From Pseudoxanthomonas japonensis (GTDB lineage Bacteria > Pseudomonadota > Gammaproteobacteria > Xanthomonadales > Xanthomonadaceae): a stretch of 64,000 nt of DNA. The stretch lies in the NCBI RefSeq assembly GCF_010093445.1, contig NZ_PDWW01000007.1, positions 1-64,000 of the forward strand, written 5' to 3'. Positions 14,693 to 63,973 of the stretch are shown here, one piece after another. Under the pieces are notes generated by a model. That model did not search any database. It saw only the letters and a program-made list of their open reading frames with translations, and was not told where the DNA came from. Numbering within the stretch: the first letter of the stretch is position 1; each line of letters begins with the position of its first letter. Both the position numbers and the translations under genes were made by a program.

Positions 14693-14836
14693 GACGTGTT
14701 CTCCCCGGTTGTGGTGGCGCCAACGTCGCATCGCCCGCCTGCGTGGGCATTGATCCGGATCAACCCTGGGTGTCCGCTGCGGCATGCCGTCGCAGGGCAT
14801 GGCATAGAATCATCGCTGGCCCACGGGAGACTGCCG

Positions 14837-16459: not shown

Positions 16460-16471
16460 CCGGCGGACGCG

Positions 16472-16501
16472 TTGACCCGCCCCCCGGTCCGCGGCTATCA
16501 T
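16472..16501 (+). promoter_or_regulatory. Sigma-70 promoter of tRNA-Val
   Basis: TTGACC (16472-16477) and TATCAT (16496-16501) are spaced by 18 bp, about 18 bases before the tRNA gene. Confidence 0.7.
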
Positions 16502-16519
16502 TCGCGCCCCGATGATTTC

Positions 16520-16594
16520 GGGCGGTTAGCTCAGCGGTAGAGCACTGCTTTCACACGGCAGGGGTCACAAGTTCGAAACTTGTACCGCCCACCA
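16520..16594 (+). tRNA. tRNA-Val (CAC)
   Basis: Complete 75-nt cloverleaf with CCA: acceptor GGGCGGT pairs with ACCGCCC (one G-T pair); anticodon CAC at 16552-16554 in loop ttcacac. It reads GUG, a codon used heavily in this GC-rich sequence. Confidence 0.96.
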
Positions 16595-45077: not shown

Positions 45078-45091
45078 TGAAAACGTTTACA
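45078..45091. promoter_or_regulatory. LacI-type operator upstream of bglX
   Basis: TGAAAACGTTTACA, 33 bp before the bglX ATG. It fits the shared consensus TGWAAWCGNTTACA of the four sites in this locus, with the central CG typical of LacI-family operators. Confidence 0.75.
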
Positions 45092-45123
45092 TTCGCCCCC
45101 TTTCGTTACGCCGGGAGGGCGCC

Positions 45124-47388
45124 ATGAACCGGGAAGTCCCCACTGTTCCGCCACGACCGCTGCTGGTCGGCATGATCGCTGTCCTGCTGGCGGCACCGGC
45201 CGCCGCCAAGCCGCCGGTCTACGCGACGCCGGCCGAAAAAGCCTTCGTCGACGCCCTGATGGCGAAGATGACGGTCGAAGAGAAGCTCGGCCAGCTGAAC
45301 CAGCCGGCCGGGGTGGGCAACAACACCGGCCCGGCGGCCATGACGGGCAACGAGGACCAGATCCGCAAGGGCGAGATCGGCACCTATCTGGGTACCCAGG
45401 GCGCGGTGCTGACCTGCCGCCTGCAGCGGATCGCGGTGGAGCAGTCCCGGCTGGGCATCCCGCTGATGTTCGGCTACGACGTGATCCACGGCCACCGCAC
45501 CGTCTTCCCGGTGCCGCTGGGCGAGTCCGCCAGCTTCGATCCGGTCGAAGTGCAGCATGCCGCCCGTGTCGCGGCGATCGAGGCCTCGGCGCACGGCATC
45601 CACTGGACGTACGCGCCGATGGTCGACATCGCGCGTGATCCGCGCTGGGGTCGCGTGGTGGAAGGCGCGGGCGAAGATCCCTATCTGGGATCGGTACTCG
45701 CGGCGGCGCGCGTGCGCGGCTTCCAGGGCGACGACCTGCGCAAGCCGGACGCGGTGCTGGCCACGGCCAAGCATTTCGTCGCGTACGGCGCGGCCGAGGG
45801 CGGCCGCGATTACGACGTGGCCGACATTTCCGAACGCAGCCTGCACGAGGTCTATCTGCCGCCGTTCAAGGCCGCGGTCGATGCCGGCGCGCAATCGATC
45901 ATGGCCGCGTTCAACGAGATCGCCGGCGTGCCCATGCACGCGCACCGGCCGCTGATCGAGGATCTGCTGCGCAAGGAATGGGGCTGGGATGGCCTGCTGG
46001 TCAGCGACTACACCGGTGTGATGGAACTGATGCCGCACGGCATCGCCGCCGACCGCAAGCAGGCGGGGGCACTCGGCCTGCGTGCCGGCGTCGACGTCGA
46101 CATGGTCAGCCAGATCTACGTGAAGGACCTGCCGGCCGAAGTGAAGGCGGGCCGCGTGCCCATGGCGCAGGTGGATGCCTCCGTGCGTCGCGTACTGAAT
46201 GCCAAGTACCGGCTGGGCCTGTTCGAGAATCCGTACCGTTCCTGCACCGACGATGGCGCCCACGAGCGCGCCATGACGCTGACGCCGCAACACCGCGCCG
46301 ACGCACGCCGGATGGCGCAGAAGTCGCTCGTGCTGCTGGAGAACGACAACGACGTGCTGCCGCTGTCGAAGTCGGTGCGCACGCTGGCGGTGATCGGCCC
46401 GCTCGCCGACCATCGCCGCGCGATGCTCGGCAACTGGGCGGTGGCCGGGCGCGAAGAGGACGCGGTGACGCCGATCGAGGGCCTGAAGGCCGCGCTGGGT
46501 GACGGTACGCGGCTGGTGATCGCGAAGGGTGCCGACATCGACAGCCAGGACACCTCCGGTTTCGCGCAGGCCGTTGCGGCGGCGAAGCAGGCCGATGCGG
46601 TGGTGATGTTCCTCGGCGAACACCCGGACATGAGCGCGGAAGCGAACAACCGCACCTCGCTGGACCTGCCCGGCGTGCAGGAGCAACTCGCACTGGCGGT
46701 CGCCGCGACCGGCAAGCCGGTGGTGGCCGTGCTGTTGAACGGACGCCCGCTGTCGATCGGTGGCCTGAAGGGCAAGGTGCCGGCGATCCTCGAAGCCTGG
46801 TTCCCCGGCGTCGAGGGCGGCCACGCGATCACCGACGTGCTGTTCGGCGACGTCAATCCGTCGGCCAAGCTGCCGGTGACGTTCCCGCACAACGTCGGCC
46901 AGGTGCCGATCTACTACGCGCACAAGAACACCGGCCGTCCGCCGAGCGAGCAGGAGAAGTACACCAGCAAGTACCTCGACGTGCCGTGGACGCCGCTGTA
47001 CGCCTTCGGCCACGGACTCAGCTACACGACGTTCCGCTACGACGCGCCGGTCGTGGCGAAGAAGACGCTGGCGCCTTCCGCCCTGCAGCAGCAGGTGAGC
47101 GTGCGCGTCACGAACACCGGCAAGCGGGAGGGCGTCGAGGTGGTGCAACTGTATGTGCGGGACGATGTCGCCACCGTCACCCGTCCGGTGAAGCAGTTGC
47201 GCGGCTTCCAGCGCCTGGCGCTGGCGCCTGGCGAATCGAAGACGGTCACGTTCGACCTCGGCTTCGAGGATCTGGCGATGTACGACGACCGCATGCAGCG
47301 GGTGGTGGAGCCCGGCACGTTCACCGTGTATGTCGGCGGCAGTTCCGACCGCACGCGTGAGGTCGCTTTCGAGGTCGCCGCCCAATAG
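45124..47388 (+). CDS. bglX: Periplasmic beta-glucosidase, glycoside hydrolase family 3
   Basis: Hydrolyses terminal beta-glucosyl residues of oligosaccharides; 754 residues, close to Escherichia coli BglX. Signal peptide about 1-28 (APAAAK); GH3 N-terminal barrel about 40-365 with RDPRWGRVVEGAGEDPYLG and the nucleophile Asp295 in LLVSDYTGVMELM; GH3 C-terminal domain about 400-620 (IEAWFPGVEGGHAITDVLFG); fibronectin-III-like domain about 665-740. The operator at 45078-45091 puts it under the LacI regulator encoded next. GH3 enzymes of this group include sophorose-active members, which fits the GH144-like gene downstream. Confidence 0.92.
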   Translation: MNREVPTVPPRPLLVGMIAVLLAAPAAAKPPVYATPAEKAFVDALMAKMTVEEKLGQLNQPAGVGNNTGPAAMTGNEDQIRKGEIGTYLGTQGAVLTCRLQRIAVEQSRLGIPLMFGYDVIHGHRTVFPVPLGESASFDPVEVQHAARVAAIEASAHGIHWTYAPMVDIARDPRWGRVVEGAGEDPYLGSVLAAARVRGFQGDDLRKPDAVLATAKHFVAYGAAEGGRDYDVADISERSLHEVYLPPFKAAVDAGAQSIMAAFNEIAGVPMHAHRPLIEDLLRKEWGWDGLLVSDYTGVMELMPHGIAADRKQAGALGLRAGVDVDMVSQIYVKDLPAEVKAGRVPMAQVDASVRRVLNAKYRLGLFENPYRSCTDDGAHERAMTLTPQHRADARRMAQKSLVLLENDNDVLPLSKSVRTLAVIGPLADHRRAMLGNWAVAGREEDAVTPIEGLKAALGDGTRLVIAKGADIDSQDTSGFAQAVAAAKQADAVVMFLGEHPDMSAEANNRTSLDLPGVQEQLALAVAATGKPVVAVLLNGRPLSIGGLKGKVPAILEAWFPGVEGGHAITDVLFGDVNPSAKLPVTFPHNVGQVPIYYAHKNTGRPPSEQEKYTSKYLDVPWTPLYAFGHGLSYTTFRYDAPVVAKKTLAPSALQQQVSVRVTNTGKREGVEVVQLYVRDDVATVTRPVKQLRGFQRLALAPGESKTVTFDLGFEDLAMYDDRMQRVVEPGTFTVYVGGSSDRTREVAFEVAAQ

Positions 47389-47432
47389 AGGCATGCGTCG
47401 CGGTTGGCATGCGTTTGCTGCAATGCAAAATA

Positions 47433-47460
47433 CTTGCGGATACCTTCGAGTGTCCGCAAG
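47433..47460. other. Hairpin between bglX and the lacI-type gene
   Basis: cttgcgga and tccgcaag form perfect 8-bp arms around a 12-base loop. It lies 45 bp after bglX; without a T-tract it is at best a weak terminator or RNA stabiliser. Confidence 0.45.
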
Positions 47461-47515
47461 TGCATGAATTCGTGAGGGTTTAAGTGTCGAATAACGCGGG
47501 CTTTACACGTTTCCG

Positions 47516-47529
47516 TGAAAACGGTTACA
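47516..47529. promoter_or_regulatory. LacI-type operator upstream of the regulator gene
   Basis: TGAAAACGGTTACA, 44 bp before the regulator's start codon, suggesting autoregulation. Same consensus as the other three sites. Confidence 0.75.
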
Positions 47530-47572
47530 GTCCGCGCCACTCAAGGCTGTCATCACCGCGGAGGGGCGGGGA

Positions 47573-48613
47573 ATGGCGCGAACCTCGGTCACCATCAAGG
47601 ATGTCGCACGCGAGGCGCGGGTTTCCGTCGCCACCGTGTCGCGTGCCTTGAACGGCCACGAGAACGTCGCCGAATCCGTCCGCCAGCAGGTCCTGGCCAC
47701 CGCCGACCGCCTCCGCTACCAGCCCCACGCCGCCGCGCGCAGCCTGAGCAGCCGCCGCACCCAGACCATCGGCGTGGTGTTGCCCGACCTGTACGGCGAA
47801 TTCTTTTCCGAACTGATCCGCGGCATCGACCAGGTGGCCCGTGCACGGCGCCAGCACCTGCTGGTGTCCAGCTACCACGGTCATCCGGAAGAACAGGGCG
47901 AAGCCCTGCGCGCGATGCGCGGCCGGGTGGATGGCCTGCTGGTGCTGTCGCCGTACAGCGACCGTCCCGGCTTCCTGGTCGACAACCTGCCATCGTCGCT
48001 GCCGGTCGTACTGATCAATACCGATGTACAGGACGCGTCGTATCCCGCGTTGACCATCGACAACTATGGCGCGGCCGTCGCGATGGTCGAACACCTGGCG
48101 GCGTCCGGTCACCAGCGCATCGCCTTCATCGGCGGCCCGGAAGGCAACTTCGACGCGCGCGAACGCCTGCGCGGTTATCGCGATGCGATGGCGCGCTTCG
48201 TGCCGGGCACGTCGCCGCAGGAATTTGCCGGCGATTTCAGCGAATCCTCAGGCTACGAAGCCGGCAAGCGCATCGCGCAATCGGCGGAGAAGCCGCAGGC
48301 GGTCTTCGCCGCCAACGACATGACGGCATTGGGATGCCTGTACGCCTTCAACGAAGCCGGTGTGCGCGTTCCGCAGGACGTCGCGCTGGCCGGCTTCGAC
48401 GACATCCCGCTCGCGCGTTTTGTTCACCCGACCTTGACCACGATGCGGGTCAGTATTGCCGAACTCGGTGGACAGGCGATGGGCCGGTTGCTGGACGCGA
48501 TCGACTCCGATGGAGCGCGCGTTGCGCCGTCGGCGATGCTGGTTCCCGAATTGATCGTCAGGGCGTCGAGTGTGGGAGAGGGCCGGCACACGGAAAAACA
48601 GGCAAAGGCGTGA
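47573..48613 (+). CDS. LacI-family transcriptional regulator of the glucan locus
   Basis: The 346 residues have a helix-turn-helix (about 7-27, VTIKDVAREARVSVATVSRAL) with the hinge helix PHAAARSLSSRRT, then a periplasmic-binding-protein-like sensor domain (about 63-335; IGVVLPDLYGEFFSELIRGI, LAGFDDIPLARFVHPTLTTM). It probably represses the four nearby transcription units and is released by a di- or oligosaccharide made from the substrate glucan. ATG 47573 follows ggagggg. The gene lies between two of its own predicted target genes. Confidence 0.93.
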   Translation: MARTSVTIKDVAREARVSVATVSRALNGHENVAESVRQQVLATADRLRYQPHAAARSLSSRRTQTIGVVLPDLYGEFFSELIRGIDQVARARRQHLLVSSYHGHPEEQGEALRAMRGRVDGLLVLSPYSDRPGFLVDNLPSSLPVVLINTDVQDASYPALTIDNYGAAVAMVEHLAASGHQRIAFIGGPEGNFDARERLRGYRDAMARFVPGTSPQEFAGDFSESSGYEAGKRIAQSAEKPQAVFAANDMTALGCLYAFNEAGVRVPQDVALAGFDDIPLARFVHPTLTTMRVSIAELGGQAMGRLLDAIDSDGARVAPSAMLVPELIVRASSVGEGRHTEKQAKA

Positions 48614-48625
48614 CCGCTTTTTTTT
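48604..48625 (+). terminator. Rho-independent terminator at the end of the lacI-type gene
   Basis: aaaggcg-tgac-cgctttt with a run of eight T; the stop codon TGA (48611-48613) is in the loop. It separates the regulator from the TonB receptor transcript. Confidence 0.65.
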
Positions 48626-48634
48626 GGGCGGCGA

Positions 48635-48648
48635 TGTAATCGATTACA
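48635..48648. promoter_or_regulatory. LacI-type operator upstream of the TonB receptor
   Basis: TGTAATCGATTACA, a perfect 14-bp palindrome, 50 bp before the receptor ATG. It is the most symmetrical of the four sites. Confidence 0.82.
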
Positions 48649-48697
48649 AGCGGCACCAAGCCGACAAGCAACACATCCATCTTTGGAGGGAGAGCCA

Positions 48698-51600
48698 ATG
48701 AAACAGCGCAACCGCACCATGTTCCGTCCCAATCGCAAGTTACTGTCATGCGCCCTGGCCAGCTGCCTGGCCATGGCCGCACCGCACGTGATGGCGCAGT
48801 CCACGTCCGCCACGCTGCGAGGCGCGGTGACCGCCGATTCCACCGTCACCGTGACCAACGTGGATACCGGCCTCACCCGCACCACGAAGGCGGCCAACGG
48901 CAACTACAACATCGGTGGCCTGCCGCCGGGTACGTACCGGATCGAAGTGAATGCCGGCGGACAGACCAGCAGCCGCGCGGTGACGCTGGCCGTGGGCCAG
49001 ACCGCTACGTTGAACCTGCAGGAAGCGCCGCCGGTGTCCGCGCCGACCGGCGATGCGACCACGCTAGATACCGTGCGCGTGACCGCGCCGTTGCTGGTGG
49101 AAACGAAGACGTCCGAGATTTCCACCTATGTTTCGAACAAGCAGATTGAAGCGCTGCCACAGAACTCGCGTAACTTTCTCGCGTTTGCGGATATCGTGCC
49201 GGGTGTGACCTTCAACACCGGTGCGGATGGTTCCACGTCCTTGCGCAGCGGATCCCAACTGTCGGCTGGCGTCAATGTGTTCATTGATGGCGTGGGCCAG
49301 AAGGACTATGTCCTCAAGGGTGGTGTAACGGGGCAAGACTCGAGTCGCGGCAATCCATTTCCCCAGATGGCCATTGGTGAGTACAAGGTCATTACTTCCA
49401 ACTACAAGGCGGAGTACGACCAGCTGAGCAGCGCGGCGGTGACCGCAGTGACAAAGTCTGGTACGAACGATTTCTCGGGCAGTTTCTTCTGGGACAGGAC
49501 TGGTTCGGATTGGCGGAAGCCGACCCCCGCTGAAACGCCGAATGCGTCTAACCCCAACCGGCGAAAGGTCCGCTCGAAAGAAGAACAGTACGGTGTTTCC
49601 TTCGGTGGCCCTCTGATAAAAGATCAGGCGCATTTCTTCATTGCGTATGAAGCGAAGGAGTACAACTCCCCAAGGACCATCACACCTGGGCGGCAGTTTG
49701 CGATCGGGGATCTACCTCCAGAGTTCAGAGACGTTGCTTCGACACCGACCTCTGCTCCGTTCAAGGAGGATCTCTATTTCGGCAAGATCGATTGGGCAAT
49801 CGGCGAGTCGCATCTGCTTGAGCTGACGTTGAAGCGGCGCGAGGAAGACGAGCTGACGAGTGTCGGTGGTGCCACGGTCAACGTTCCTTCCTACGGAACC
49901 TTGAAGACGGGTGAGGAAACCCGCGTCGACTTGCGCTACCAGTTCACCAGCCAGAATTGGCTCAATGATGCACATGTCACCTTTGAAGACACCAATTTTG
50001 CGCCTCGTCCGGCCTCGCTTGAGAATGGCTACCGTCTTTTCGTGCCGCGCAGGGGGCAGGAGACAAACAACAATCCAGACATGGAAGAAGTGCTGAACCT
50101 CGGTGGTGGTGGTGATTTCCAGAACAAGGGGCAGAAGGGTTACGGATTCCAGAACGACCTGACGTTCTACGGTTGGGAGGATCACACCATAAAGATGGGT
50201 ATCAAGTACAAGGCGATCGACATCAGTGCCTTCGAACAGTCGCCCTTTTCTCCGCAGTTCCGGTACGACGTGACACGTAGTACGACGATCCCCTACTACG
50301 TGCAGTTCACGGCGCCAGGCAATGGCAACCCGACCACGGTCAATTCGAACAGCAAGCAGTTCGGCATCTACATCCAGGACGATTGGGATGTGACCGAGAA
50401 ATTGCAGCTCAACCTCGGCCTACGTTGGGACTACGAAGTTACGCCCAGCTACGAAGACCACGTGACCCCAGAGACACTGGTTACGCGCCTGCGAGCTTAT
50501 CCGGGTGTAAACAATCCAAATGTCGACTATGACATTAATGACTACATCAGTACGGGGAGCAACCGAGACTCTTTCAAGGATGGATGGGCGCCTAGGCTCG
50601 GATTCTCTTACGATCTGGGAGGTGATGCACGCCACGTGATCTTCGGTGGCGCGGGGCGCTCATACAATCGTAACCAGTTCGACTATCTGTCTTACGAGCA
50701 GTATCGCCTTGCGTTCCAGCGCTATGAGTTCTACTTCAATACACCCGGTCACGACTGCAATGCTGCGCCGGTAAGGACGCCATGCATCCCGTTTGATCCG
50801 AGCTTGTTGAATGCGGACGCACTCACCGCGCTTATCGTGCCGGGTACCAACTTTGGATCTGAGGTGTTTCTGCTGAACAATGAGCTGAAGACACCCTATT
50901 CAGACCAATTCAGCTTGGGTATGCGAAACGTCTTCGGCATGTTCGGTCATGACTGGAATTCCTCGGTCACGCTTATGCACGTTATGAGCCATGATGGGAT
51001 TCTGTTCTCGATCGGTAATCGTCGCCCCGATGGCAGTTTCTATCCGCCTGGTGTCCAGTTTGGTAACTCTCCCGGCGCGGACCTTCCTGGTTATTCGAGG
51101 TTTTTCATTGGTGACAATGCTGTAGAGACGCGACTGAATTCGGTACTGGTCTCGCTCGACAAGCCCTATACGGCAGAGTCCCCTTGGTCAGTGAGCTTTG
51201 CCTACACGTACAGCGATGCCAAGGAAAATCGTGAGGGATCCGACATCTTCACGTTCGACTACCCCAATCTGGACAACGTTGGCTTCATCGGCGCGCGCGG
51301 CGTCCCCCGGCACAAGCTCGTTGCCACAGGTATCGCTGACTTCTGGGGTCTGACCTTCTCTGGCAAGCTGACACTCACCAGCCCTCCTGGCAACACGGGC
51401 CTCAACTGCTTCCAAGGCGTGGACCCGGGTGCATGCAATGTGGTTGGACGGTTCGAGAGCTACTACTTCGATGACCAAGACTTCCGTCAGTTGGATCTTG
51501 CTGTTCAGAAGCAGTGGGACACAGGTGGCGGTATCAAGTTCCGAGTGCGCGGCGACGTACTGAACGTCACCAACGAAGTCAATTACTCGGACTTCGGAAA

Positions 51601-51709
51601 CTTCATTGGTGTAGGTGGCGTGCTGAATCCGGACTTCGGTCGCCGGACGGGTGAAGGCATTACTGGGCCCACCCGCACATTCAAGTTGTCTTTCGGCTTC
51701 GACTGGTAA
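48698..51709 (+). CDS. TonB-dependent receptor (Oar-like, with carboxypeptidase-regulatory-like N-terminus)
   Basis: Outer-membrane active transporter, 1003 residues. Signal peptide about 1-33 (ending VMAQ); a carboxypeptidase-regulatory-like beta-sandwich about 38-110 (TVTNVDTGLTRTTKAANGN, GLPPGTYRIEV); TonB-box-like TLDTVRVTAP about 122-131; plug domain about 135-260 (RNFLAFADIVPGV); barrel to the C-terminal FGFDW. The terminal Trp/aromatic is normal for barrel assembly. ggaggg precedes ATG 48698. It should import the glucan oligosaccharide handled by the adjacent enzymes. From about 49110 onward the DNA is visibly less GC-rich than its neighbours while the first 400 bp are normal, suggesting that the plug and barrel part was exchanged by recombination. 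Confidence 0.92.
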   Translation: MKQRNRTMFRPNRKLLSCALASCLAMAAPHVMAQSTSATLRGAVTADSTVTVTNVDTGLTRTTKAANGNYNIGGLPPGTYRIEVNAGGQTSSRAVTLAVGQTATLNLQEAPPVSAPTGDATTLDTVRVTAPLLVETKTSEISTYVSNKQIEALPQNSRNFLAFADIVPGVTFNTGADGSTSLRSGSQLSAGVNVFIDGVGQKDYVLKGGVTGQDSSRGNPFPQMAIGEYKVITSNYKAEYDQLSSAAVTAVTKSGTNDFSGSFFWDRTGSDWRKPTPAETPNASNPNRRKVRSKEEQYGVSFGGPLIKDQAHFFIAYEAKEYNSPRTITPGRQFAIGDLPPEFRDVASTPTSAPFKEDLYFGKIDWAIGESHLLELTLKRREEDELTSVGGATVNVPSYGTLKTGEETRVDLRYQFTSQNWLNDAHVTFEDTNFAPRPASLENGYRLFVPRRGQETNNNPDMEEVLNLGGGGDFQNKGQKGYGFQNDLTFYGWEDHTIKMGIKYKAIDISAFEQSPFSPQFRYDVTRSTTIPYYVQFTAPGNGNPTTVNSNSKQFGIYIQDDWDVTEKLQLNLGLRWDYEVTPSYEDHVTPETLVTRLRAYPGVNNPNVDYDINDYISTGSNRDSFKDGWAPRLGFSYDLGGDARHVIFGGAGRSYNRNQFDYLSYEQYRLAFQRYEFYFNTPGHDCNAAPVRTPCIPFDPSLLNADALTALIVPGTNFGSEVFLLNNELKTPYSDQFSLGMRNVFGMFGHDWNSSVTLMHVMSHDGILFSIGNRRPDGSFYPPGVQFGNSPGADLPGYSRFFIGDNAVETRLNSVLVSLDKPYTAESPWSVSFAYTYSDAKENREGSDIFTFDYPNLDNVGFIGARGVPRHKLVATGIADFWGLTFSGKLTLTSPPGNTGLNCFQGVDPGACNVVGRFESYYFDDQDFRQLDLAVQKQWDTGGGIKFRVRGDVLNVTNEVNYSDFGNFIGVGGVLNPDFGRRTGEGITGPTRTFKLSFGFDW

Positions 51710-51721
51710 TACACACCCGCC

Positions 51722-51751
51722 CTCATGCGGCGCCTTCGGGCGCCGCATGAG
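51722..51751 (+). terminator. Terminator after the TonB receptor
   Basis: A perfect 13-bp stem, ctcatgcggcgcc and ggcgccgcatgag, with a ttcg tetraloop, followed by cggcgggtttgttt. Very stable. Confidence 0.85.
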
Positions 51752-51775
51752 CGGCGGGTTTGTTTGGTGCAGTTC

Positions 51776-51789
51776 TGTAATCGGTTACA
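51776..51789. promoter_or_regulatory. LacI-type operator upstream of the GH144-ABC operon
   Basis: TGTAATCGGTTACA, 14 bp before the TTG start of the GH144-like gene. Same consensus as the other three sites. Confidence 0.78.
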
Positions 51790-51802
51790 ACAGGAAAACG
51801 TT

Positions 51803-53443
51803 TTGAACAAGATCACCCCGGCCCCGCGCGCGTACTGGTTTATCGGCGTTGCGCTGACTCTGTTGATCGCCGGTTGCCAGAAGGCGCCGGAAGAGAAAGC
51901 GGCACCTGTCGCCTCTAAACCCGCGGCACCTGCCGTCGCCGCCAAGCCGGAGCCGCCGGTGAAGCCGGAACTGCCCCCGCTGTTCCGCGACATCGAACGC
52001 CGCACGTTCCAGTTCTTCTGGGATACCACCAACGAAACGAACGGCATGACGCCGGACCGCTATCCCTCGCGTCCGTTCGCCAGCATCGCCTCCATCGGTT
52101 ATGCGCTCACCGCGTATCCCATCGGCATCGAAAACGGCTGGGTCAGCCGCACGCAGGCGGTCGACCGCACGCTGACCACGCTGAAGTTCCTGCGCGACAT
52201 CCCGCAGGGCCCGCAGAAGGAAGGCAAGGGCGGCCACAAAGGCTTCTACTACCACTTCCTCGACATGAACACCGGGCAGCGCTTCAACACCTGGGTGGAA
52301 CTGTCCAGCGTGGACACGTCGCTGTTGCTGATGGGCGTGCTGTTCGCCCAGTCGTACTACGACCGCGACGATCCGCGCGAGCGGGAGATCCGCTGGATCG
52401 CCGACACCATCTACAAGCGCGTCGACTGGACCTTCCTGCAGCAGAACAAGCCGCTGATCTCGATGGGCTGGTTCCCCGAGAGCGGCACCATCCCGCACGA
52501 CTGGAAAGGCTACAACGAAGCCATGATGGTCTACATCCTGGCGATGGCTTCGCCGACGCATCCCGTGGGCCAGGACGCGTGGGAAGTCTGGACCCGCAGC
52601 TACAGCGAGTTGTGGGGCGTGTTCCAGGGACAGGAATACCTGACCTTCGCGCCGCACTTCGGCCACCAGTACAGCCACGTCTGGATCGACTTCCGCGGCA
52701 TCCAGGACGCGTATATGCGCGAACGCGGCATGGACTATTTCGAGAATAGCCGTCGTGCCACGTACGCGCAGCGCGCCTACGCGACCGAGAATCCGATGAA
52801 GTGGAAGGACTACGGCGAGAACGTGTGGGGCCTGACCGCCTCCGACGGCCCGCAGCAGACCCTGCAGGAGTACCGCGGCGAACAGCGCCCGTTCCGCCAC
52901 TACTCCGCGCGCGGTGCCGGCTTCCGCGAGAACTTCGACGACGGCACCATCGCGCCGACCGCGGCCATCGCGTCGCTGCCGTTCGCGCCGGAGATCGTCA
53001 TTCCCGCGACGGAAGAGATGCACCGCCGCTATGGCGACTACCTGTACTCGAGCTACGGCTTCCTCGATTCGTTCAATCCCAGCTTCGACTACGACATTCC
53101 GCTGAAGACCGGCCGCATCGTGCCGGGCAAGGGCTGGGTGGCCAGCGACTACATCGGTATCGACCAGGGCCCGATCCTGGCGATGATCGCGAACTACCGG
53201 AACGACTTCGTCTGGAGCGTGATGAAGAAGAATCCGTACATCCGCGATGGCCTGAAGAAGGCCGGCTTCCAGGGCGGTTGGCTGGATGCCAAGGCGGGGC
53301 AGTCGTCTTCCGCGGGCAATGCGACCGCGCCCACCGCGCCTCCGGATCTCGATGCCGCCGCTGCGCGCGCGCTGGGTACCGCGGAGTCGCGCGCCAACCA
53401 GGCTTCGCAGCCCGAGGCGACGCGACCGCAGCAGCCCGAGTAA
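51803..53443 (+). CDS. GH144-like lipoprotein (putative endo-beta-1,2-glucanase; Glycoamylase domain)
   Basis: The 546 residues start with a lipoprotein signal (LTLLIAGC, Cys25) and an Ala/Pro/Lys linker (to about 55), then an (alpha/alpha)6 barrel of the Pfam Glycoamylase type (about 55-500). Visible features: RRTFQFFWDTTNETNGM, DRYPSRPFASIASIGYALTA, GFYYHFLDMNTG, FPESGTIPHDWKGYNEAMM and SHVWIDFRGIQD. Characterised members of this fold are GH144 endo-beta-1,2-glucanases, so cleavage of beta-1,2-glucan is the best guess. The start is TTG 51803 with cagga upstream; no ATG fits. The C-terminal ~45 residues are a low-complexity Ala/Gln tail. First gene of the operon through 59738. Confidence 0.82.
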   Translation: MNKITPAPRAYWFIGVALTLLIAGCQKAPEEKAAPVASKPAAPAVAAKPEPPVKPELPPLFRDIERRTFQFFWDTTNETNGMTPDRYPSRPFASIASIGYALTAYPIGIENGWVSRTQAVDRTLTTLKFLRDIPQGPQKEGKGGHKGFYYHFLDMNTGQRFNTWVELSSVDTSLLLMGVLFAQSYYDRDDPREREIRWIADTIYKRVDWTFLQQNKPLISMGWFPESGTIPHDWKGYNEAMMVYILAMASPTHPVGQDAWEVWTRSYSELWGVFQGQEYLTFAPHFGHQYSHVWIDFRGIQDAYMRERGMDYFENSRRATYAQRAYATENPMKWKDYGENVWGLTASDGPQQTLQEYRGEQRPFRHYSARGAGFRENFDDGTIAPTAAIASLPFAPEIVIPATEEMHRRYGDYLYSSYGFLDSFNPSFDYDIPLKTGRIVPGKGWVASDYIGIDQGPILAMIANYRNDFVWSVMKKNPYIRDGLKKAGFQGGWLDAKAGQSSSAGNATAPTAPPDLDAAAARALGTAESRANQASQPEATRPQQPE

Positions 53444-53524
53444 GCTGTCCGCATGGATCGGCGTGCGCCAGCAAGGGTCTCTCCGGCACGCATCAGGGTC
53501 TTCTCCGGTGGAAGGAGGGCCCTG

Positions 53525-54808
53525 GTGCGCTGCTGTTTCCTTGCGACCCTGATCCTCGCGCTTGCGCTCGTGGCGGGCTGCGCGCGCACGCAGGACGAAC
53601 GCACCGTGGTGCGGTTCTGGGTAATGGGCTACGAAGGCGAGATCGTCGCGAAGCTGTTGCCCGAGTTCGAGCGCCAGCATCCCGGCATCCGCGTGGACCT
53701 GCAGATCGTGCCGTGGCTGTCCGCGCACGAGAAGCTGCTGACCGCCTTCGCGGGCGAGTCGCTGCCCGACGTCAGCCCGATCGGGAACACGTGGATTCCC
53801 GAGTTCGCAGCCCTCGGCGCGCTCGAACCGCTGGACGACGAGATCGCGGCCACGCCGGGCTTCGACCCGGCGGATTTTTTCCCCGGCGTGTGGGACACCG
53901 GCGTGATCGAGGGCCGCACCTACGCAGTGCCGTGGTACGTCGAAACGCGCCTGCCGTTCTACCGCCGCGACATGCTCGCGAAGGCCGGCGTGAAGACGTT
54001 GCCGGTCAGCTGGGACGAATGGCGGGTCGCGATGCGCGAGGTGAAGCGCGTCGCGGGGCAGGGCAACTATTCGATCCTGCTGCCGCTCAACGAATTCGAA
54101 CCGCTGCTCAGCCTGGCCATCCAGCAGCCCGAGCCGCTGCTGCGCGACGATGGGCGCTACGGCAATTTCCGCAGCGAAGGCTTCCGGCGGTCGTTGGGCT
54201 TCTACAAGGAAATGTTCGACCAGCAGTGGGCGCCGGTTGTCACCAACAACCAGATCTCCAATGTGTGGGATGAGTTCGGCAAGGGTTTCTACTCGTTCTA
54301 TATCTCCGGTCCCTGGAACATCGCCAAGTTCAAGGAACGCCTGCCGGCCGCACAGCAGAAGGACTGGATGACCATGCCGCTGCCCGGCCCGGGCGGCCCC
54401 GGTGCTTCGCTGGCCAACGGCACCAGCTTCGTGGTGTTCAAGGACTCGCCGAACAAGGACGCCGCCTGGACACTGATCGCTTGGCTCTCGTCGCCTGCCG
54501 TGCAGACCGAATTCCATTCGCTGACCGGTGACCTGCCGCCGCGACGCTCGCCGTGGCAGACGCCCGCGCTGGCGAACGATCCGTATGCCAAGGCATTCCG
54601 CGAGCAGTTGGAACGCGCGGTCTCCACGCCGAAGGTGCCGGAGTGGGAGCGCATCGCCACCGAAATGCGGCTGGTCGGCGAGCAGGTCGCCAATGGCCGG
54701 CTGACGGTCGACCAGGCGGCCGAGGAACTCGACCGGCGCGCCGACCGCATCCTCGAGAAGCGCCGCTGGATGCTGGATCACGCTGCCAAGCCGGGAGCCG
54801 GGCCGTGA
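53525..54808 (+). CDS. ABC sugar-transport substrate-binding lipoprotein
   Basis: Extracellular solute-binding protein family 1, 427 residues. GTG 53525 with a strong aaggaggg ribosome site gives a clean lipoprotein signal MRCCFLATLILALALVAGC (Cys19); an ATG at 53453 would add 24 residues before it. Domain features: VVRFWVMGYEGEIVAKLLPE, NTWIPEFAALGAL, GRTYAVPWYVETRLPFYRRD, and GTSFVVFKDSPNKDAAWTLI. It binds oligosaccharide in the periplasm and hands it to the two permeases. Stop overlaps the next gene by four bases. Confidence 0.9.
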   Translation: MRCCFLATLILALALVAGCARTQDERTVVRFWVMGYEGEIVAKLLPEFERQHPGIRVDLQIVPWLSAHEKLLTAFAGESLPDVSPIGNTWIPEFAALGALEPLDDEIAATPGFDPADFFPGVWDTGVIEGRTYAVPWYVETRLPFYRRDMLAKAGVKTLPVSWDEWRVAMREVKRVAGQGNYSILLPLNEFEPLLSLAIQQPEPLLRDDGRYGNFRSEGFRRSLGFYKEMFDQQWAPVVTNNQISNVWDEFGKGFYSFYISGPWNIAKFKERLPAAQQKDWMTMPLPGPGGPGASLANGTSFVVFKDSPNKDAAWTLIAWLSSPAVQTEFHSLTGDLPPRRSPWQTPALANDPYAKAFREQLERAVSTPKVPEWERIATEMRLVGEQVANGRLTVDQAAEELDRRADRILEKRRWMLDHAAKPGAGP

Positions 54809-55689
54809 GGTCGACGCATACGCTCGCCGGCTGGCTGTTCGCCGCGCCCGCGCTGACGGTCATCGTGGTGTTCTTCGGACTGCCCGTGCTGGCCGCGCTG
54901 GCGCTGAGCCTCACCGATTTCGACATCTACGCGCTGGCCGACATCGGCAACCTGCGTTTCGTCGGCTTCGACAACTACATCGGACTGCTGCAGAACCCGA
55001 TGTTCTGGAAGTCGCTGGGCAACACGGTGTACTTCGTCGTGGTCGGCGTGCCGCTGTCGGTGGCGCTGTCGCTGGGCGCAGCGCTGCTGCTGCACTCGAA
55101 GCTCGGCCGCTTCAAGGGTTTCTTCCGCACCGCGTTCTTCGCGCCGGTGGTGACGACGGTCGTTGCGGTCGCGGTGATCTGGCGCTACCTGTTCCACACC
55201 AAGTACGGCCTGGTGAACTGGGGCCTGTCGTGGGTGGGCATCGATCCGGTCGACTGGCTGGGCGATCCCACCTGGGCCATGCCGACCATCATCCTGTTCG
55301 CGGTGTGGAAGAACTTCGGCTACAACATGATCATCTTCCTGGCCGGCCTGCAGAGCATTCCGGAAGACCTGTACGAGGCCGCGCGCATCGACGGTGCTTC
55401 GCGCTGGGCGCAGTTCCGCCACGTCACCCTGCCGCAGCTGGGGCCGGTACTGCTGCTGGTCGGCATCCTCACGATGGCCGGCTATTTCCAGCTGTTCGCT
55501 GAGCCCTACGTGATGACGCAGGGCGGCCCGCTCGAGAGCACCAAGAGCGTGCTGTACCTGATGTACGAAGAAGGCTTCAAATGGTGGAACCTCGGTAACG
55601 CGTCCGCGGTGGCCTTCCTGCTGTTCCTGCTGATGACGGTCGTGACCAGCGGCCTGCTGTGGTTCGCGCGCAAGCGGGGCGTGGAATGA
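54805..55689 (+). CDS. ABC sugar permease, MalF-type
   Basis: The 294-residue inner-membrane permease has about six helices. The cytoplasmic EAA loop that contacts the ATPase is clear: YEAARIDGASRWAQFRHVTL. GTG 54805 overlaps the binding-protein gene, and its stop overlaps the next permease, so these genes are translationally coupled. Confidence 0.92.
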   Translation: MRSTHTLAGWLFAAPALTVIVVFFGLPVLAALALSLTDFDIYALADIGNLRFVGFDNYIGLLQNPMFWKSLGNTVYFVVVGVPLSVALSLGAALLLHSKLGRFKGFFRTAFFAPVVTTVVAVAVIWRYLFHTKYGLVNWGLSWVGIDPVDWLGDPTWAMPTIILFAVWKNFGYNMIIFLAGLQSIPEDLYEAARIDGASRWAQFRHVTLPQLGPVLLLVGILTMAGYFQLFAEPYVMTQGGPLESTKSVLYLMYEEGFKWWNLGNASAVAFLLFLLMTVVTSGLLWFARKRGVE

Positions 55690-56507
55690 ACCAGCGTCTC
55701 GCCGCCATCGTCGTCAATGCGCTGCTGGTCGCGCTCGCCGTGGTCAGCCTGGGGCCGCTGCTGTGGATGCTGTCGGTGTCCTTCATGCAGACCGGCGAGG
55801 CCGGCCACTTTCCGCCGCCGCTGCTGCCGTCCGCGCCCACTCTGGACAACTACCGCGAGCTGTTCGTGCGCGCCGGCATGGGCCGCTACCTGGCCAACAG
55901 CTTCATCGTCTCGACCAGCGTCATGCTGCTGTCGCTGCTGTTCAACACCATGGCCGGCTACGCCTTCGCCAAGCTGCGCTTCAAGGGCCGCGACCGCACC
56001 TTCCGCGCCCTGCTGGCGGCGCTGGTGATCCCGGCACAGGTGGCGATGATGCCGCTGTTCCTGCTGCTCAAGCAGATGGGCCTGGTGAACACCTATGCGG
56101 GTGCCATCGTGCCGGGCATGGCGGCGATCTTCGGCATCTTCCTGGTGCGCCAGTACGCACGCTCGATCCCGGACGAACTGCTCGAGGCCGCGCGCATCGA
56201 CGGCGCCAGCGAGGCGCGCATCTTCTTCCAGATCGTGCTGCCGGGCCTGAAGCCGATCCTGGTGACGCTGGCGATCTTCAGCTTCCTCGGCGCATGGAAC
56301 GATTTCATGTGGCCGCTGATCGTGTTGAGCGACGACAGCCTGCAGACCCTGCCGGTCGCACTGGCGGGCCTGTCGCGCGAACACGTGATGGACTACGAAC
56401 TGATGATGGCCGGCTCGGTCGTCACCATCCTGCCGGTGCTGCTGCTGTTCCTCGTGCTGCAGCGCTACTACATCCAGGGCCTGTTGCTGGGCAGCGTCAA
56501 AGGCTGA
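55686..56507 (+). CDS. ABC sugar permease, MalG-type
   Basis: Partner permease, 273 residues, with about six helices and an EAA loop LEAARIDGASEARIFFQIVL. ATG 55686. No ATP-binding subunit follows; the pair must use an ATPase encoded elsewhere, as many sugar ABC systems do with a shared MsmK/UgpC-type protein. Confidence 0.92.
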   Translation: MNQRLAAIVVNALLVALAVVSLGPLLWMLSVSFMQTGEAGHFPPPLLPSAPTLDNYRELFVRAGMGRYLANSFIVSTSVMLLSLLFNTMAGYAFAKLRFKGRDRTFRALLAALVIPAQVAMMPLFLLLKQMGLVNTYAGAIVPGMAAIFGIFLVRQYARSIPDELLEAARIDGASEARIFFQIVLPGLKPILVTLAIFSFLGAWNDFMWPLIVLSDDSLQTLPVALAGLSREHVMDYELMMAGSVVTILPVLLLFLVLQRYYIQGLLLGSVKG

Positions 56508-56540
56508 CCCGGAGCGGGTCATCGTGGAGCTCGAATCGTC

Positions 56541-59500
56541 ATGAACATCGAACCGTCATTCCCGCGCAGGCGGGAACCCAGCGACATTGCCTCCCGCAAG
56601 GCTGCACTGGCCTGCGGCGCCCTGCTTGCGTACGCCACGTCCGCGTTCGCCGCACAGGACGGCGTCCGTGTCCTCGACGGCTTCGATGACCCCACCATCT
56701 GGCGCGTGGTCACCTCCAATCAGGTCAGCGGCGCGTTGCGCCAGGTCGATGGCGTGGACGGCAAGGCGATGTGCCTGGACTACGATTTCAACGGGGTGTC
56801 CGGCCATGCCGGTATCCAGCGCGACCTGCCGATGGCGTATCCGGCGAACTACCAGTTCGGTTTCCAGCTGCGCGGCGACTCGCCCCGCAACGACCTGCAG
56901 TTCAAGGTGATCGACGCCAGCGGCGACAACGTGTGGTGGGTCAACCGGCCGAAGTACGAATACCCGACCGCGTGGACGCCGGTGCGCTACAAGCAGCGCC
57001 ACATCGACAAGGCGTGGGGGCCGGACCCGGATCGCGTCTTGCGCAGAAGCACGAAGCTTGAGTTCACCGTCTACAACAACGCGGGCGGCAAAGGCTCGGT
57101 CTGCTTCGACCAGCTCACGTTCCAGCCGTTGCCGGTCGACGACGGCACGCCGCTGACGGGCAAGGCGAGTGCGTCCGTTGCGTTCCCGGCCGGCGCCGCG
57201 GCCTTGGCTATCGACGGCAAGGCGGATACGGCATGGTCCGCCGACCTGCACGGCGACAAGGATCCGCAACTGACGCTGGACCTGGGCAAGCCGCGCGAGT
57301 TCGGCGGCCTGGTGCTGCGCTGGAAGCCGGAGCAGCATGCGTCGGATTACCTGGTACAGCTGTCCGACGATGGCGTGCGCTGGCGCGATGCACGCACGGT
57401 GGTCGATGGCAATGGCGGCAACGACTATCTCGCGCTGCCGGAATCGGAAGCGCGCTATGTGCGGCTGACCATCGGCGATGGTCCCGGACGTTCGTTCGCG
57501 CTGGCCGAGCTGGAAGTGAAGCCGCTGGCCTTCGCCGCGCACCCCAACGACCTGATCAAGGCGATGGCGGCGGAGTCGCCGAAGGGCTGGTTCCCGCGCG
57601 GCTTCAGTGGCGAACAGCCGTACTGGACCATCGTCGGCCTCGACGGCGGCCGCGAGCAGGGCCTGATCGGCGAAGACGGCGCCATCGAGATCGCCAAGGG
57701 CGGCGTCAGTGTCGAACCGTTCGTGCAGGTCGATGGGCGCTGGATCGGCTGGTCGGACGTGCAGGCAACGCAGTCGCTGCAGGACCGTTATCTGCCGATG
57801 CCGACCGTCGCATGGAAACACCCCGACTTTGCGCTGACGACCACCGCGTTCGCAGCGGGCAGGCCCGGCGACTCGCGCGTCGTCGCGCGCCATCGGCTGA
57901 CCAACACCGGCAAGACGCCGCGCGAGTACGTGCTGGCGCTGGCCGTGCAGCCCTGGCAGGTCAATCCGCCCAGCCAGTTCCTCAATACCACCGGCGGTTT
58001 CAGTCCGATCAACGATCTGGCGGTGCGCGATGGGGTGGTCAGCGTGAACGGCCGCGCCAGCCTGCGCTTCGCCACGCCCGATGCGGCGCTGGCGTCGCGC
58101 TTCGACGAGGGCCTGATACGCGAGCGCTTGGCGACGATGGGCGACACCGTCGACGGGACAGCCGTGCAGGTGGCTGGCGAGTCGACCGGACTCGCCTCCG
58201 CCGCCGTGTTGTACCGGATCACGCTGGCGGCCGGCGAAAGCCGCGACATCGACTGGGTGGCGCCGCTGGAAGGCGCGCTGCCGGCGAAGATCGACGCCGC
58301 GCGCGACCAGCAGGCCACCGCGGCGATGTGGCGCGGTAAGCTCGGCGAGATGAAGCTGCAGGTGCCCGTCGAAGGGCAGCCGGTCGCCGATACCTTGCGC
58401 ACGGCGCTCGCGCACATGCTGATCTCGCGCATCGGCCCGCGCCTGCAGCCGGGCACGCGGTCGTACTCGCGCAGCTGGATCCGCGACGGCGCGATGATCT
58501 CCGAAGGCCTGCTGCGCCTCGGGCGCCCCGAGGTCGTCAAGGAGTACGTCGAGTGGTACGCCCCATACCAGTTCAAGAACGGCAAGGTGCCGTGCTGTGT
58601 CGACGACCGCGGCAGCGATCCCGTGCCCGAAAACGACAGCCATGGCGAGCTGATCTTCAATGTCGCCGAGTACTACCGTTATACCGGCGACAAGGCCTTC
58701 CTGAGGAGGATGTGGCCGCACGTGCAGGGCGCCTTCGCCTACATGGAAGAGCTGCGCCTGAGCGAGCGCACCGAAGCCAACCGCGCGGTCAACGCCGCGT
58801 TCTACGGCATGATGCCGGCGTCGATCAGCCACGAAGGCTATTCGGCCAAGCCGATGCATTCGTACTGGGACAACTTCTGGGCGCTGCGCGGCTACAAGGA
58901 TGCGGTCGAGGTCGCCGATGCGCTCGGGCAGACGGCGGAATCGAAGCGCATGGCCGCCTCGCGCGACGAGTTCCGCGACGACCTCTACGCCTCGCTGCAG
59001 GCGGCGACGAAGCTGCACGGCATCGCCTATCTGCCCGGTGCGGCGGAGATCGGCGACTTCGATCCCACCTCGACGACCATCGCGCTGGCGCCGGGCGGCG
59101 AGCAGGGCAAGCTGCCGGCGGACCTGTTGCACGGCACCTTCGAGCGCTACTGGACCGAGTTCGTGCAGCGCCGCGACGGCCAGCGCGAGTGGAAGGACTA
59201 CACACCGTACGAATGGCGCAACGTGGCGGCGTTCGTGCGCCTCGGTTGGCGCGAGCGTGCGTGGGACGTGCTCGATTTCTTCTTCAAGGACCGCGCGCCG
59301 CAGCCCTGGAACCAGTGGGCGGAAGTGGTCTCGCGCACGCCGCGCACGCCGTTCTTCGTCGGTGACCTGCCGCATGCCTGGGTAGCGTCGGACTTCGTCC
59401 GCTCGGCGCTGGACATGTTCGCGTACTCGCGCGAACTCGACGACAGTCTGGTGCTGGCCGCTGGCGTTCCGGCGACGTGGCTGGACGGCGAGGGCATCGC

Positions 59501-59738
59501 CATCGATGGGCTGCGTACGCCGAACGGCGTGTTGGGGTATTCGCTGCGCAAGACCGGTGGCGAGGTCGTGCTGGAAGCGAAGGCGGGTTTGAAGTTGCCG
59601 CCCGGTGGTCTGGTGTTGCCGTGGCCATACAAGGATGCGCCGGGCGAGACGCGCATCAACGGCAAGCCGGCGCAGTGGACGAACGGCGAGCTGCGCATCA
59701 CCACGCTGCCGGCGAAGGTTAGTATCCGCACGCGCTGA
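56541..59738 (+). CDS. Discoidin-domain plus (alpha/alpha)6-barrel protein, putative new glycoside hydrolase
   Basis: The 1065-residue secreted protein appears to have a signal peptide (about 18-37, ending TSAFA). Then a beta-sandwich (about 38-200; VLDGFDDPTIWRV), an F5/8 type C discoidin domain (about 205-330; WSADLHGDKDPQLTLDLGKP, YVRLTIGDGPG), a beta-supersandwich-like region (about 345-590), and an all-helical barrel (about 600-1000) with SYSRSWIRDGAMISEGLLRLG, DDRGSDPVPENDSHGELIFN, and FVGDLPHAWVASDFVRS. The RSWIRDGA block with acidic partners resembles six-hairpin glycosidases, but I cannot place it in a numbered GH family. It ends the GH144-ABC operon. The first codons coincide with a REP element (56553-56583) that encodes SFPRRREPS, so the true start is uncertain. 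Confidence 0.75.
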   Translation: MNIEPSFPRRREPSDIASRKAALACGALLAYATSAFAAQDGVRVLDGFDDPTIWRVVTSNQVSGALRQVDGVDGKAMCLDYDFNGVSGHAGIQRDLPMAYPANYQFGFQLRGDSPRNDLQFKVIDASGDNVWWVNRPKYEYPTAWTPVRYKQRHIDKAWGPDPDRVLRRSTKLEFTVYNNAGGKGSVCFDQLTFQPLPVDDGTPLTGKASASVAFPAGAAALAIDGKADTAWSADLHGDKDPQLTLDLGKPREFGGLVLRWKPEQHASDYLVQLSDDGVRWRDARTVVDGNGGNDYLALPESEARYVRLTIGDGPGRSFALAELEVKPLAFAAHPNDLIKAMAAESPKGWFPRGFSGEQPYWTIVGLDGGREQGLIGEDGAIEIAKGGVSVEPFVQVDGRWIGWSDVQATQSLQDRYLPMPTVAWKHPDFALTTTAFAAGRPGDSRVVARHRLTNTGKTPREYVLALAVQPWQVNPPSQFLNTTGGFSPINDLAVRDGVVSVNGRASLRFATPDAALASRFDEGLIRERLATMGDTVDGTAVQVAGESTGLASAAVLYRITLAAGESRDIDWVAPLEGALPAKIDAARDQQATAAMWRGKLGEMKLQVPVEGQPVADTLRTALAHMLISRIGPRLQPGTRSYSRSWIRDGAMISEGLLRLGRPEVVKEYVEWYAPYQFKNGKVPCCVDDRGSDPVPENDSHGELIFNVAEYYRYTGDKAFLRRMWPHVQGAFAYMEELRLSERTEANRAVNAAFYGMMPASISHEGYSAKPMHSYWDNFWALRGYKDAVEVADALGQTAESKRMAASRDEFRDDLYASLQAATKLHGIAYLPGAAEIGDFDPTSTTIALAPGGEQGKLPADLLHGTFERYWTEFVQRRDGQREWKDYTPYEWRNVAAFVRLGWRERAWDVLDFFFKDRAPQPWNQWAEVVSRTPRTPFFVGDLPHAWVASDFVRSALDMFAYSRELDDSLVLAAGVPATWLDGEGIAIDGLRTPNGVLGYSLRKTGGEVVLEAKAGLKLPPGGLVLPWPYKDAPGETRINGKPAQWTNGELRITTLPAKVSIRTR
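56553..56583. repeat. REP-like palindrome at the 5' end of a gene
   Basis: ccgtcattcccgcg-caggcgggaacccagcg, the classical REP core (gtcattcccgcg and cgcgggaaccca arms), lies within codons 5-14 of the 1065-residue protein's open frame. Confidence 0.8.
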
Positions 59739-62965: not shown

Positions 62966-63973
62966 CTAGGCGTGCGCGGCGCTTTTCGGTCCGAACCGTT
63001 CGACCGCGTACGCCGCCGCACCGAGCAGGCCGGGACGCGGATGCATGTTCGCCAACGTCGGCACGCGTCCCATCGCGGGCGAAAAGCGGCCCTTGTGTTC
63101 GAAGCGCTGTCGGAAGCCCGAATGCTGCAGCGAGGTCAGCAGTTTCGGCACCAGTCCGCCGGTGAGGAACACGCCATCCCAGGCGCCGGTGGTGAGCACC
63201 AGGTCGCCGGCGATCGCGCCGAACACCGCGCAGAACACGTCCAGCGTGCGCACGCAGCGCGGATCGCCGGCGGCGGCGCGCGCGGTGACGTCCTTCGGTT
63301 CGATCGGGCCGCCCGGATCCTCGCCGGCGATCTCGCTGAGCGCGCGGTACAGGTTCACCAGGCCGGGGCCGCAGATCAGGCGCTCGTTGGAGACGCGGCC
63401 GAACTGCGACGACAGGATGTCGAGGATGCGGATTTCTTCCGGCGTACCGGGCGGAAAGCTCACGTGGCCGCCTTCGGTTTCCAGCGGATACGCACGGCCG
63501 TCGCGGATGATCAGCGCGGCCACGCCCAGGCCCGTGCCCGGGCCGATGACGGCGTACGTACGCGATTCGCTGAGCGGCGCGGGGCGCCACTGCGCACCGC
63601 CGATCGCCACGACATCCTTCGGCGTCAGCAGCGACACCGCCATCGCCTGCGCGGCGAAGTCGTTGACCAGCTTCAGGCCCTGGAATCCCAGCGCCTGCCG
63701 CGTGCGGTTCACCGAAATGACCCACGGGTGGTTGGTGATGCGCGCTTCGTCGCCATCGACGCGGCCGGCGACGGCGAACACGCCGTTCTGCGCCGTCGCG
63801 CCGGTTTCATCCAGGTAGTGCTGTGCGGCGTCCGCGAGCGACGGGAAATCGGCGACCACGAACTCGCGCACGCTGTCGTCCAGCAGCGGCACGGCGGCGG
63901 ACGTATCGGCCAGCGCGAAGCGCGCATTGGTGCCGCCGATGTCGGCGAGAAGGACGCGATCGGCGTTGCTCAT
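62966..63973 (-). CDS. glk: Glucokinase
   Basis: ATP-dependent phosphorylation of glucose, 335 residues, the ROK-unrelated Glk family. ATP/phosphate site DIGGTNARFAL (about 10-20), glucose site FAVAGRVDGDEARITNHPW and KLVNDFAAQAMAV, and GPGTGLGVA. With edd and eda it takes free glucose into the Entner-Doudoroff pathway after conversion to 6-phosphogluconate by enzymes encoded elsewhere. Only 27 bp lie upstream in the window, so its promoter cannot be judged. Confidence 0.94.
   Translation of the reverse strand: MSNADRVLLADIGGTNARFALADTSAAVPLLDDSVREFVVADFPSLADAAQHYLDETGATAQNGVFAVAGRVDGDEARITNHPWVISVNRTRQALGFQGLKLVNDFAAQAMAVSLLTPKDVVAIGGAQWRPAPLSESRTYAVIGPGTGLGVAALIIRDGRAYPLETEGGHVSFPPGTPEEIRILDILSSQFGRVSNERLICGPGLVNLYRALSEIAGEDPGGPIEPKDVTARAAAGDPRCVRTLDVFCAVFGAIAGDLVLTTGAWDGVFLTGGLVPKLLTSLQHSGFRQRFEHKGRFSPAMGRVPTLANMHPRPGLLGAAAYAVERFGPKSAAHA

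Follow-up and report, generated by a model that had tools for sequence, protein, structure and literature searches.

A locus in the bacterium Pseudoxanthomonas japonensis very probably belongs to a LacI-controlled regulon for the uptake and digestion of bacterial β-1,2-glucan, as judged from sequence comparisons. It lies in the 64,000-nucleotide stretch of DNA analysed here (the window; positions 1 to 64,000 of contig NZ_PDWW01000007.1, in whose numbering coordinates are given) and consists of eight genes, all on the + strand, between 45124 and 59738. The original prediction for this DNA had named a glycoside hydrolase family 3 (GH3) enzyme, a LacI regulator, a receptor, a GH144-like lipoprotein, the substrate-binding protein (SBP) of an ATP-binding cassette (ABC) transporter, two permeases and a large barrel protein; this set is confirmed in the same order, and 45078, which had been given as the start of the locus, coincides exactly with the first nucleotide of a LacI operator. 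The proposed substrate, β-1,2-glucan, is well supported by the relationship of the glucanase to XcSGL, by an SBP resembling Lin1841 and by one type of operator across the whole set. The genes are as follows:

45124..47388, + strand: GH3 β-glucosidase of the BglX type (Pfam GH3 N, C and Fn3-like domains; NCBIfam BglX)
47573..48613, + strand: LacI-family repressor (Pfam PF00356, PF13377)
48698..51709, + strand: Oar-like TonB-dependent outer-membrane receptor (PF13620, PF25183, PF00593)
51803..53443, + strand: predicted GH144 endo-β-1,2-glucanase lipoprotein, orthologue of XcSGL/XCC2207 (PF10091; 8xul; TTG start)
53453..54808, + strand: ABC substrate-binding lipoprotein (SBP), orthologue of the X. 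citri "MalE" 3UOR and relative of Lin1841
54805..55689, + strand: ABC permease 1 (PF00528; its GTG start overlaps the SBP stop)
55686..56507, + strand: ABC permease 2 (PF00528; its ATG start overlaps the permease 1 stop)
56541..59738, + strand: GH15L, 1065 amino acids, predicted exported six-hairpin glycosidase with a CBM32-like domain (profile searches; co-conservation)

The five genes from GH144 to GH15L look like one operon, as they are separated by 9 bp, two 4-bp overlaps and 33 bp. Gene content and common operators together give what a carbohydrate utilisation (CUT) locus contains, namely a regulator, a TonB-dependent receptor (TBDR), an inner-membrane transporter and enzymes under one regulator. 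The Xanthomonas sux CUT locus likewise unites a LacI repressor, a TBDR, an inner-membrane transporter and a sugar enzyme, but it serves sucrose, has a transporter of the major facilitator superfamily (MFS) instead of an ABC transporter, and contains an amylosucrase.

The assignment of the 51803-53443 protein to GH144 is clear, with a PF10091 match at E 7.2e-87 and 291 bits against a curated cut-off of 27. Its best PDB match is 8xul (XCC2207/XcSGL) with 899 bits across 518 residues, while the next reaches 209 bits and 5gzh, 5gzk and the GH194 enzyme 8xuk score 154, 153 and 32 bits; the call of nearest relative is made on scores, not on a tree. The residues shared by the SGL clan, E239, F286 and Y367 (counted from 51803), carry the same numbers as in XcSGL and are kept in 77, 76 and 77 of 77 aligned relatives, respectively, and the candidate acidic base aligns by eye with D171, kept in 77 of 77; clan residues and base are those described in PMC12102758. 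There, XcSGL is treated as a GH144 enzyme with a narrow specificity for β-1,2-glucans, and its structure has been solved with Sop7. The original prediction held that GH144 members with known activity are endo-β-1,2-glucanases, and it had named a failure of the 51803 protein to cluster with GH144 as a refutation; no such failure occurred. The lipoprotein, which begins with TTG and has the lipobox LIAGC (by eye), is by homology a true GH144 β-1,2-glucanase whose activity is carried over from XcSGL. This step is therefore known in kind, because the specificity of XcSGL is in print and the clan residues are conserved in the window protein. The two enzymes share the family and clan residues and are orthologues by score, and the Xanthomonas loci that were fetched have the gene order of the window; the difference is that in the published text, as far as it was available, the enzyme alone is characterised and the locus, the regulon and GH15L are not mentioned. 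A more distant GH144 (41-48%) lies about 0.4 kb or less from a GH94 frame of 778-1384 amino acids in four genomes of genus g4 (G166, G200, G230 and G241) and in G228, perhaps an oligoglucan phosphorylase arrangement.

Control by a single repressor is indicated by the operators. Palindromes of the LacI kind were found 5' of the GH3, receptor and GH144 genes, and a looser one 5' of lacI. The pattern TGWAANCGNTTACA was drawn from these sites, so the tests elsewhere are those that count. It occurs in the window at four places (six strand matches), and it was found in none of 100 dinucleotide shuffles:

45078..45091, + strand: LacI operator TGAAAACGTTTACA before GH3 (pattern search)
47516..47529, + strand: LacI operator TGAAAACGGTTACA before lacI (pattern search)
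48635..48648, no strand assigned: LacI operator TGTAATCGATTACA before the receptor gene, a perfect palindrome (palindrome and pattern search)
51776..51789, no strand assigned: LacI operator TGTAATCGGTTACA before the GH144 operon (pattern search)

The whole 4.08-Mb genome holds seven distinct sites, five of them within the glucan gene cluster, and no match to the pattern read backwards. One site, at 64281, is located 141 bp 5' of the match to an ABC ATPase. The sixth precedes a second GH3 gene of the BglX type, followed by an MFS gene; the first Pfam domain of this GH3 starts at residue 15, and no signal peptide is present.

Comparison with other genomes (numbers preceded by G or L are our labels for genomes and loci) used the best 80 of 562 confirmed relatives, mostly from Pseudoxanthomonas, Luteimonas, Lysobacter, Xanthomonas and Stenotrophomonas; the nearest named relatives belong to Pseudoxanthomonas and not to Xanthomonas, the genus with which the locus had first been compared. 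These 80 loci contain 155 operator sites, with at least one site in 72 of them, and 152 of the 155 can be assigned (300 before to 40 after a gene start) to the starts of lacI, receptor, GH144 or ATPase genes. Sites are carried by lacI in 51 of 69 cases, by GH144 in 43 of 77 and by the ATPase gene in 31 of 44. By contrast, the genes inside the proposed operon have none (SBP 0/77, permease 1 0/78, permease 2 0/79, GH15L 0/80), nor has GH3 in the three relatives in which it was testable, and Markov copies of 20 of the 80 loci gave no match. From which genes carry the sites across the relatives, we infer that the operator belongs to the LacI of the locus. A literature search found no paper on this regulon, and the main text of PMC4052901 mentions neither Xanthomonas nor glucan.

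The order GH144-SBP-permease-permease-GH15L is collinear in 77 of the 80 relatives, and the other three end at contig ends. As the relatives were found through GH15L, the reverse test matters: among 247 genomes of the family, GH144 was matched in 148 and GH15L in 137, all of them within the 148. In 135 of these genomes GH15L is present as an orthologue (G001 and G015 have only a paralogue), within 12 kb of GH144 in 132 and on a separate contig in three, and only 5 of the 140 genomes with a GH144 orthologue are devoid of a GH15L orthologue. In a sample of the phylum, the GH15L profile matched 33 of 398 genomes, in many cases by virtue of the F5/8-C part only. Outside the class, a GH15L of 41-46% identity is present in five loci; four keep the order GH144-SBP-permease-permease-GH15L and the fifth begins at GH15L. 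The fuller order LacI-receptor-GH144-SBP-permease-permease-GH15L is seen in three, and in two the ATPase gene adjoins GH15L.

The SBP links the transporter to the same substrate. A phmmer search ranks PDB 3uor first (2.2e-156), followed by Lin1841 (5ysb, 2.3e-60) and GacH (3.8e-35), so that Lin1841 is the nearest characterised binder; it binds the sophorooligosaccharides Sop3-5 according to PMC12369401. With the locus SBP of X. euvesicatoria (L087) the 3UOR chain shares 98.5% identity, with those of the next 13 loci among the matches listed (best of 78 matched) 92-98%, and with the window SBP 55%. 3UOR is thus a putative binder of sophorooligosaccharides, because the nearest characterised relative of the SBP binds Sop3-5. 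The name Xac-MalE, and the general UgpA/UgpE/UgpC and MalF/MalG/MalK type of the permeases and ATPase, would also fit a maltose or trehalose importer that is a mere neighbour of the glucanase. This is very unlikely, since Xac-MalE is listed in print without an assigned binding specificity, the SBP is closer to Lin1841 than to any maltose binder, a gap of 9 bp separates the GH144 and SBP genes within one operon, an adjacency kept outside the class, and the GH144/SBP operon and the ATPase gene share operators. The maltose importer was set aside on the proximity of the SBP to Lin1841 and the 92-98.5% identity of 3UOR to the SBPs encoded at this place in L087 and the next 13 loci.

The remaining two components are less specific. 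The GH3 enzyme has a BglX score of 809 bits against a cut-off of 666 and, by eye, a Sec-like signal peptide; its PDB relatives include Lin1840 (4zo6) and 5xxl, which we take to be BT_3567. The receptor is Oar-like, with a CarboxypepD_reg extension and a β-barrel. Its Xanthomonas counterpart by locus number, XCC2208, is listed as a receptor without a canonical plug (PMC1790865). Six loci have a gene for a flavoprotein of the tryptophan halogenase family between receptor and GH144 (L042:6973-8493, L133, L134, L135, L226 and L235), the family assignment coming from a Pfam run on L042; this gene is absent from the window locus.

Several observations weigh against a glucan regulon of this kind. The GH3 relatives act on several linkages, and the enzyme is therefore no proof of the substrate. 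The receptor gave no match to the plug model (PF07715) at E 0.001, by which a canonical TBDR is recognised, and one locus outside the class (L199) has the order given above without a receptor match. Operators at receptor genes number just 13 of 69 under the exact pattern, and 8 of the 80 loci, two of them short contigs, have no site at all. The seventh site in the genome (L253:6457-6470) is located 40 bp 5' of a DUF481 gene that shows no clear connection with glucan use.

A model of glucan breakdown would begin at the outer membrane, where the Oar-like receptor may take up the glucan or long fragments of it. The GH144 lipoprotein would then make internal cuts to yield sophorooligosaccharides, as is in print for XcSGL, and GH15L together with the exported GH3 would trim them in the periplasm. 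Family and operator suggest that short oligosaccharides are imported by the binding lipoprotein, the two permeases and the UgpC-type ATPase, to be finished in the cytoplasm by the second GH3, which has no signal peptide. The resulting glucose could enter the adjacent glucokinase and Entner-Doudoroff genes, and the LacI repressor would release the DNA on binding an oligosaccharide or glucose. The neighbouring genes concerned are:

60822..62732, - strand: edd, phosphogluconate dehydratase (TIGR01196, 917 bits, above cut-off)
62966..63973, - strand: glk, glucokinase (PF02685)
64422-65495, same contig, 422 bp beyond the window end: ABC ATPase (UgpC type)

The ATPase is the only one above the cut-off among 38 UgpC-model matches in the genome; the operator pattern search found no match near edd.

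What the original prediction called a large unknown barrel protein is present, and it can now be described as a probable six-hairpin glycosidase that is exported, bears a CBM32-like domain and matches known families weakly. Residues 210-321 of GH15L form an F5/8-C (CBM32-like) domain; the protein also has an export signal (by eye) and a six-hairpin region. In a survey of 44 members at E values up to 1, the GH78 domain Bac_rhamnosid6H was matched by 42, GDE_C by 33 and GH95 by 25, the best member reaching 7.5e-7 for the GH78 domain and 1.7e-5 for GDE_C; oligosaccharide amylase was matched weakly by 12 of 16 members. Against the GDE_C cut-off of 21 bits, window GH15L scores 19.7, or 20.5 and 21.3 with neighbours, and its orthologues lie on both sides (G065 27.6 and G157 21.1 above; G132 19.3 below). 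No match to PF00723 (GH15) was found in GH15L or in any other part of the genome. In a profile built from 21 catalytic parts, four of them from relatives at 21-23% identity that belong to other families of the class, E765 and E928 are present in all 21 rows, and D649, E697, D699, D777, D942 and H945 are also kept. The best PDB match of the GH15L profile is the glucoamylase 1lf6, at a total E of 0.0083 in three collinear pieces, none of them significant singly. An ungapped offset places E765 no more than a few residues away from E438 of 1lf6, which together with E636 we take to be catalytic there. This points to E765 as the acid and E928 as the base of a candidate catalytic pair. hhalign of the GH15L catalytic part gave no usable match, with probabilities of 1.5 for GH15 and 6.0 for GDE_C, with shallow profiles and 5 of the 12 GH15 rows from the wrong strand. 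Bacterial GH15 glucoamylases consist of a β-sandwich followed by a six-hairpin barrel; GH15L resembles 1LF6 in its weak collinear profile match, but differs in having no PF00723 match and an extra CBM32-like N-terminal part. It is possible that GH15L represents a new glycoside hydrolase family.

Related genes occur outside these loci. A GH15L paralogue of 31-38% identity (L030:8857-11985, L032:7996-11154, L072:15434-18601, L074:15455-18637, L226:495-3503) adjoins the GH144 locus in two Luteimonas genomes and G082, and around L030, L031 and L032 no sugar locus is evident by eye. Other families of the class have a protein family of about 750 amino acids that resembles GH15L at 21-23% and shares its two glutamates (L200:5163-7400, L202:6185-8530, L203:3537-5831, L204:5481-7730). 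No signal peptide is evident in it, and in L202 and L203 its gene adjoins an apparent glycosyltransferase.

Most likely GH15L is a glycosidase that removes something GH144 cannot. One candidate, a real possibility though held with less than even confidence, is an exo-acting β-1,2-glucosidase on sophorooligosaccharides that replaces GH3 in most of the family. Among the loci that have no GH15L, 4 of 5 contain GH3, whereas GH3 is present in 9 of the 43 sampled loci that do have GH15L, the window locus being one of these (p 0.015, uncorrected). GH3 stands directly 3' of GH144 in G173 and G191, both of which are devoid of GH15L. As GH3 is commoner where GH15L is missing, this suggests that the two can stand in for each other. 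The count left out G002, G004, G113, and G201 and G253, which show neither LacI nor receptor, and it scored G054, G068 and G092 as having no GH3 although ScpB was outside the view. Against this candidate stand the window clade, which has both enzymes, the mostly α-acting families nearest to GH15L, and the small number of independent GH15L losses (about three).

Those nearest families (GDE_C with its amylo-α-1,6-glucosidase, GH78, GH95 and oligosaccharide amylase), like the glucoamylase 1lf6 as best PDB profile match, would suit an α-1,6-glucosidase acting on the single α-1,6 bond of cyclic glucans made by OpgD, with the locus digesting glucans of the CβG-α type completely. This idea is tentative and on balance doubtful. 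With related genomes each counted apart, opgD is found in 105 of 135 genomes with GH15L against 10 of 112 without, and cyclic glucan synthase, a weaker association, in 46 of 135 against 15 of 112. The synthase count comprises 61 genomes picked by hand with frames of at least 2220 amino acids and leaves out G041 and G119, whose frames are shorter. Of the five genomes in which GH144 occurs without a GH15L orthologue, four are devoid of both opgD and the synthase. On the other hand, 30 of the 135 GH15L genomes have no opgD and 23 have neither gene, and in G049 both synthesis genes accompany GH144 although GH15L is absent. The association of GH144 itself with opgD is just as strong (opgD in 106 of 140 genomes with GH144 against 9 of 107 without), so the link is to the locus and not to GH15L in particular. 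This co-occurrence hints that the locus may recycle the cell's own glucan.

The P. japonensis genome encodes one OpgD and one cyclic glucan synthase of 2950 amino acids. In this OpgD, W76 is replaced by Y, D343 by T and R477 by Y, and the short loop segment contains no GW. According to PMC11228985 this is the clade-4 pattern, which would retain anomer-inverting transglycosylation, a point in favour of the α-1,6 reading, but would not yield the 16-membered ring. The idea that this bacterium itself makes CβG16α is weakened, because its OpgD has neither D343 nor R477. The boldest proposal, that GH15L founds a new glycoside hydrolase family cutting the α-1,6 bond of OpgD-made cyclic β-1,2-glucans and that the regulon is the first complete pathway for them, must be regarded as unlikely.

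Two further described systems come close to the locus. The lin1839-lin1841 cluster of Listeria innocua (SOGP, GH3 and SBP) shares ABC import of sophorooligosaccharides and a GH3, but it is Gram-positive, uses a phosphorylase and, in the part of its description available here, has no GH144, GH15L or outer-membrane receptor. In Bacteroides thetaiotaomicron the GH3 BT_3567 lies beside a GH144, a pairing like the one seen here; we know of no ABC importer or GH15L there. Searches of the open-licence literature by locus tag gave PMC1790865 for XCC2208 and PMC12102758 for XCC2207, and no paper on the locus under XCC2202-2206 or XCC2209-2211; papers under other tags or licences are outside this search. 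As the activity of GH144 is already in print, the novelty is in the locus, the regulon and the 1065-amino-acid GH15L. Among TBDR sugar loci this one is a new variant, and the component that most merits further study is GH15L.

The surroundings of the locus recur in Xanthomonas sacchari, in whose record the same gene series is annotated with edd, pgl, glk, zwf and ugpC; its gene table, which is incomplete, lists no coding sequence where the 1065-amino-acid protein would sit. The X. sacchari record NZ_CP010410.1 (L140), 508 kb long and labelled a plasmid, carries scpA, edd, zwf and glk along with the glucan locus and may be a chromosome piece or a chromid. Elsewhere in the window, five tRNA genes (Gly, Cys, Gly, Leu, Val) lie within 2.6 kb at 13966-16594.

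Cyclic β-1,2-glucans shape the encounters of Xanthomonas and other bacteria with plants, and to our knowledge little is known about their breakdown. The locus described here names a whole candidate path for it together with its DNA switch. It also offers sophorooligosaccharides as a candidate ligand for the solved structure 3UOR, which is listed without one, and draws attention to GH15L as an unstudied enzyme kept beside GH144 even in another class. If GH15L did cut the α-1,6 bond, the regulon would be the counterpart to OpgD, which would make α-1,6-cyclised β-1,2-glucans in the same cell.

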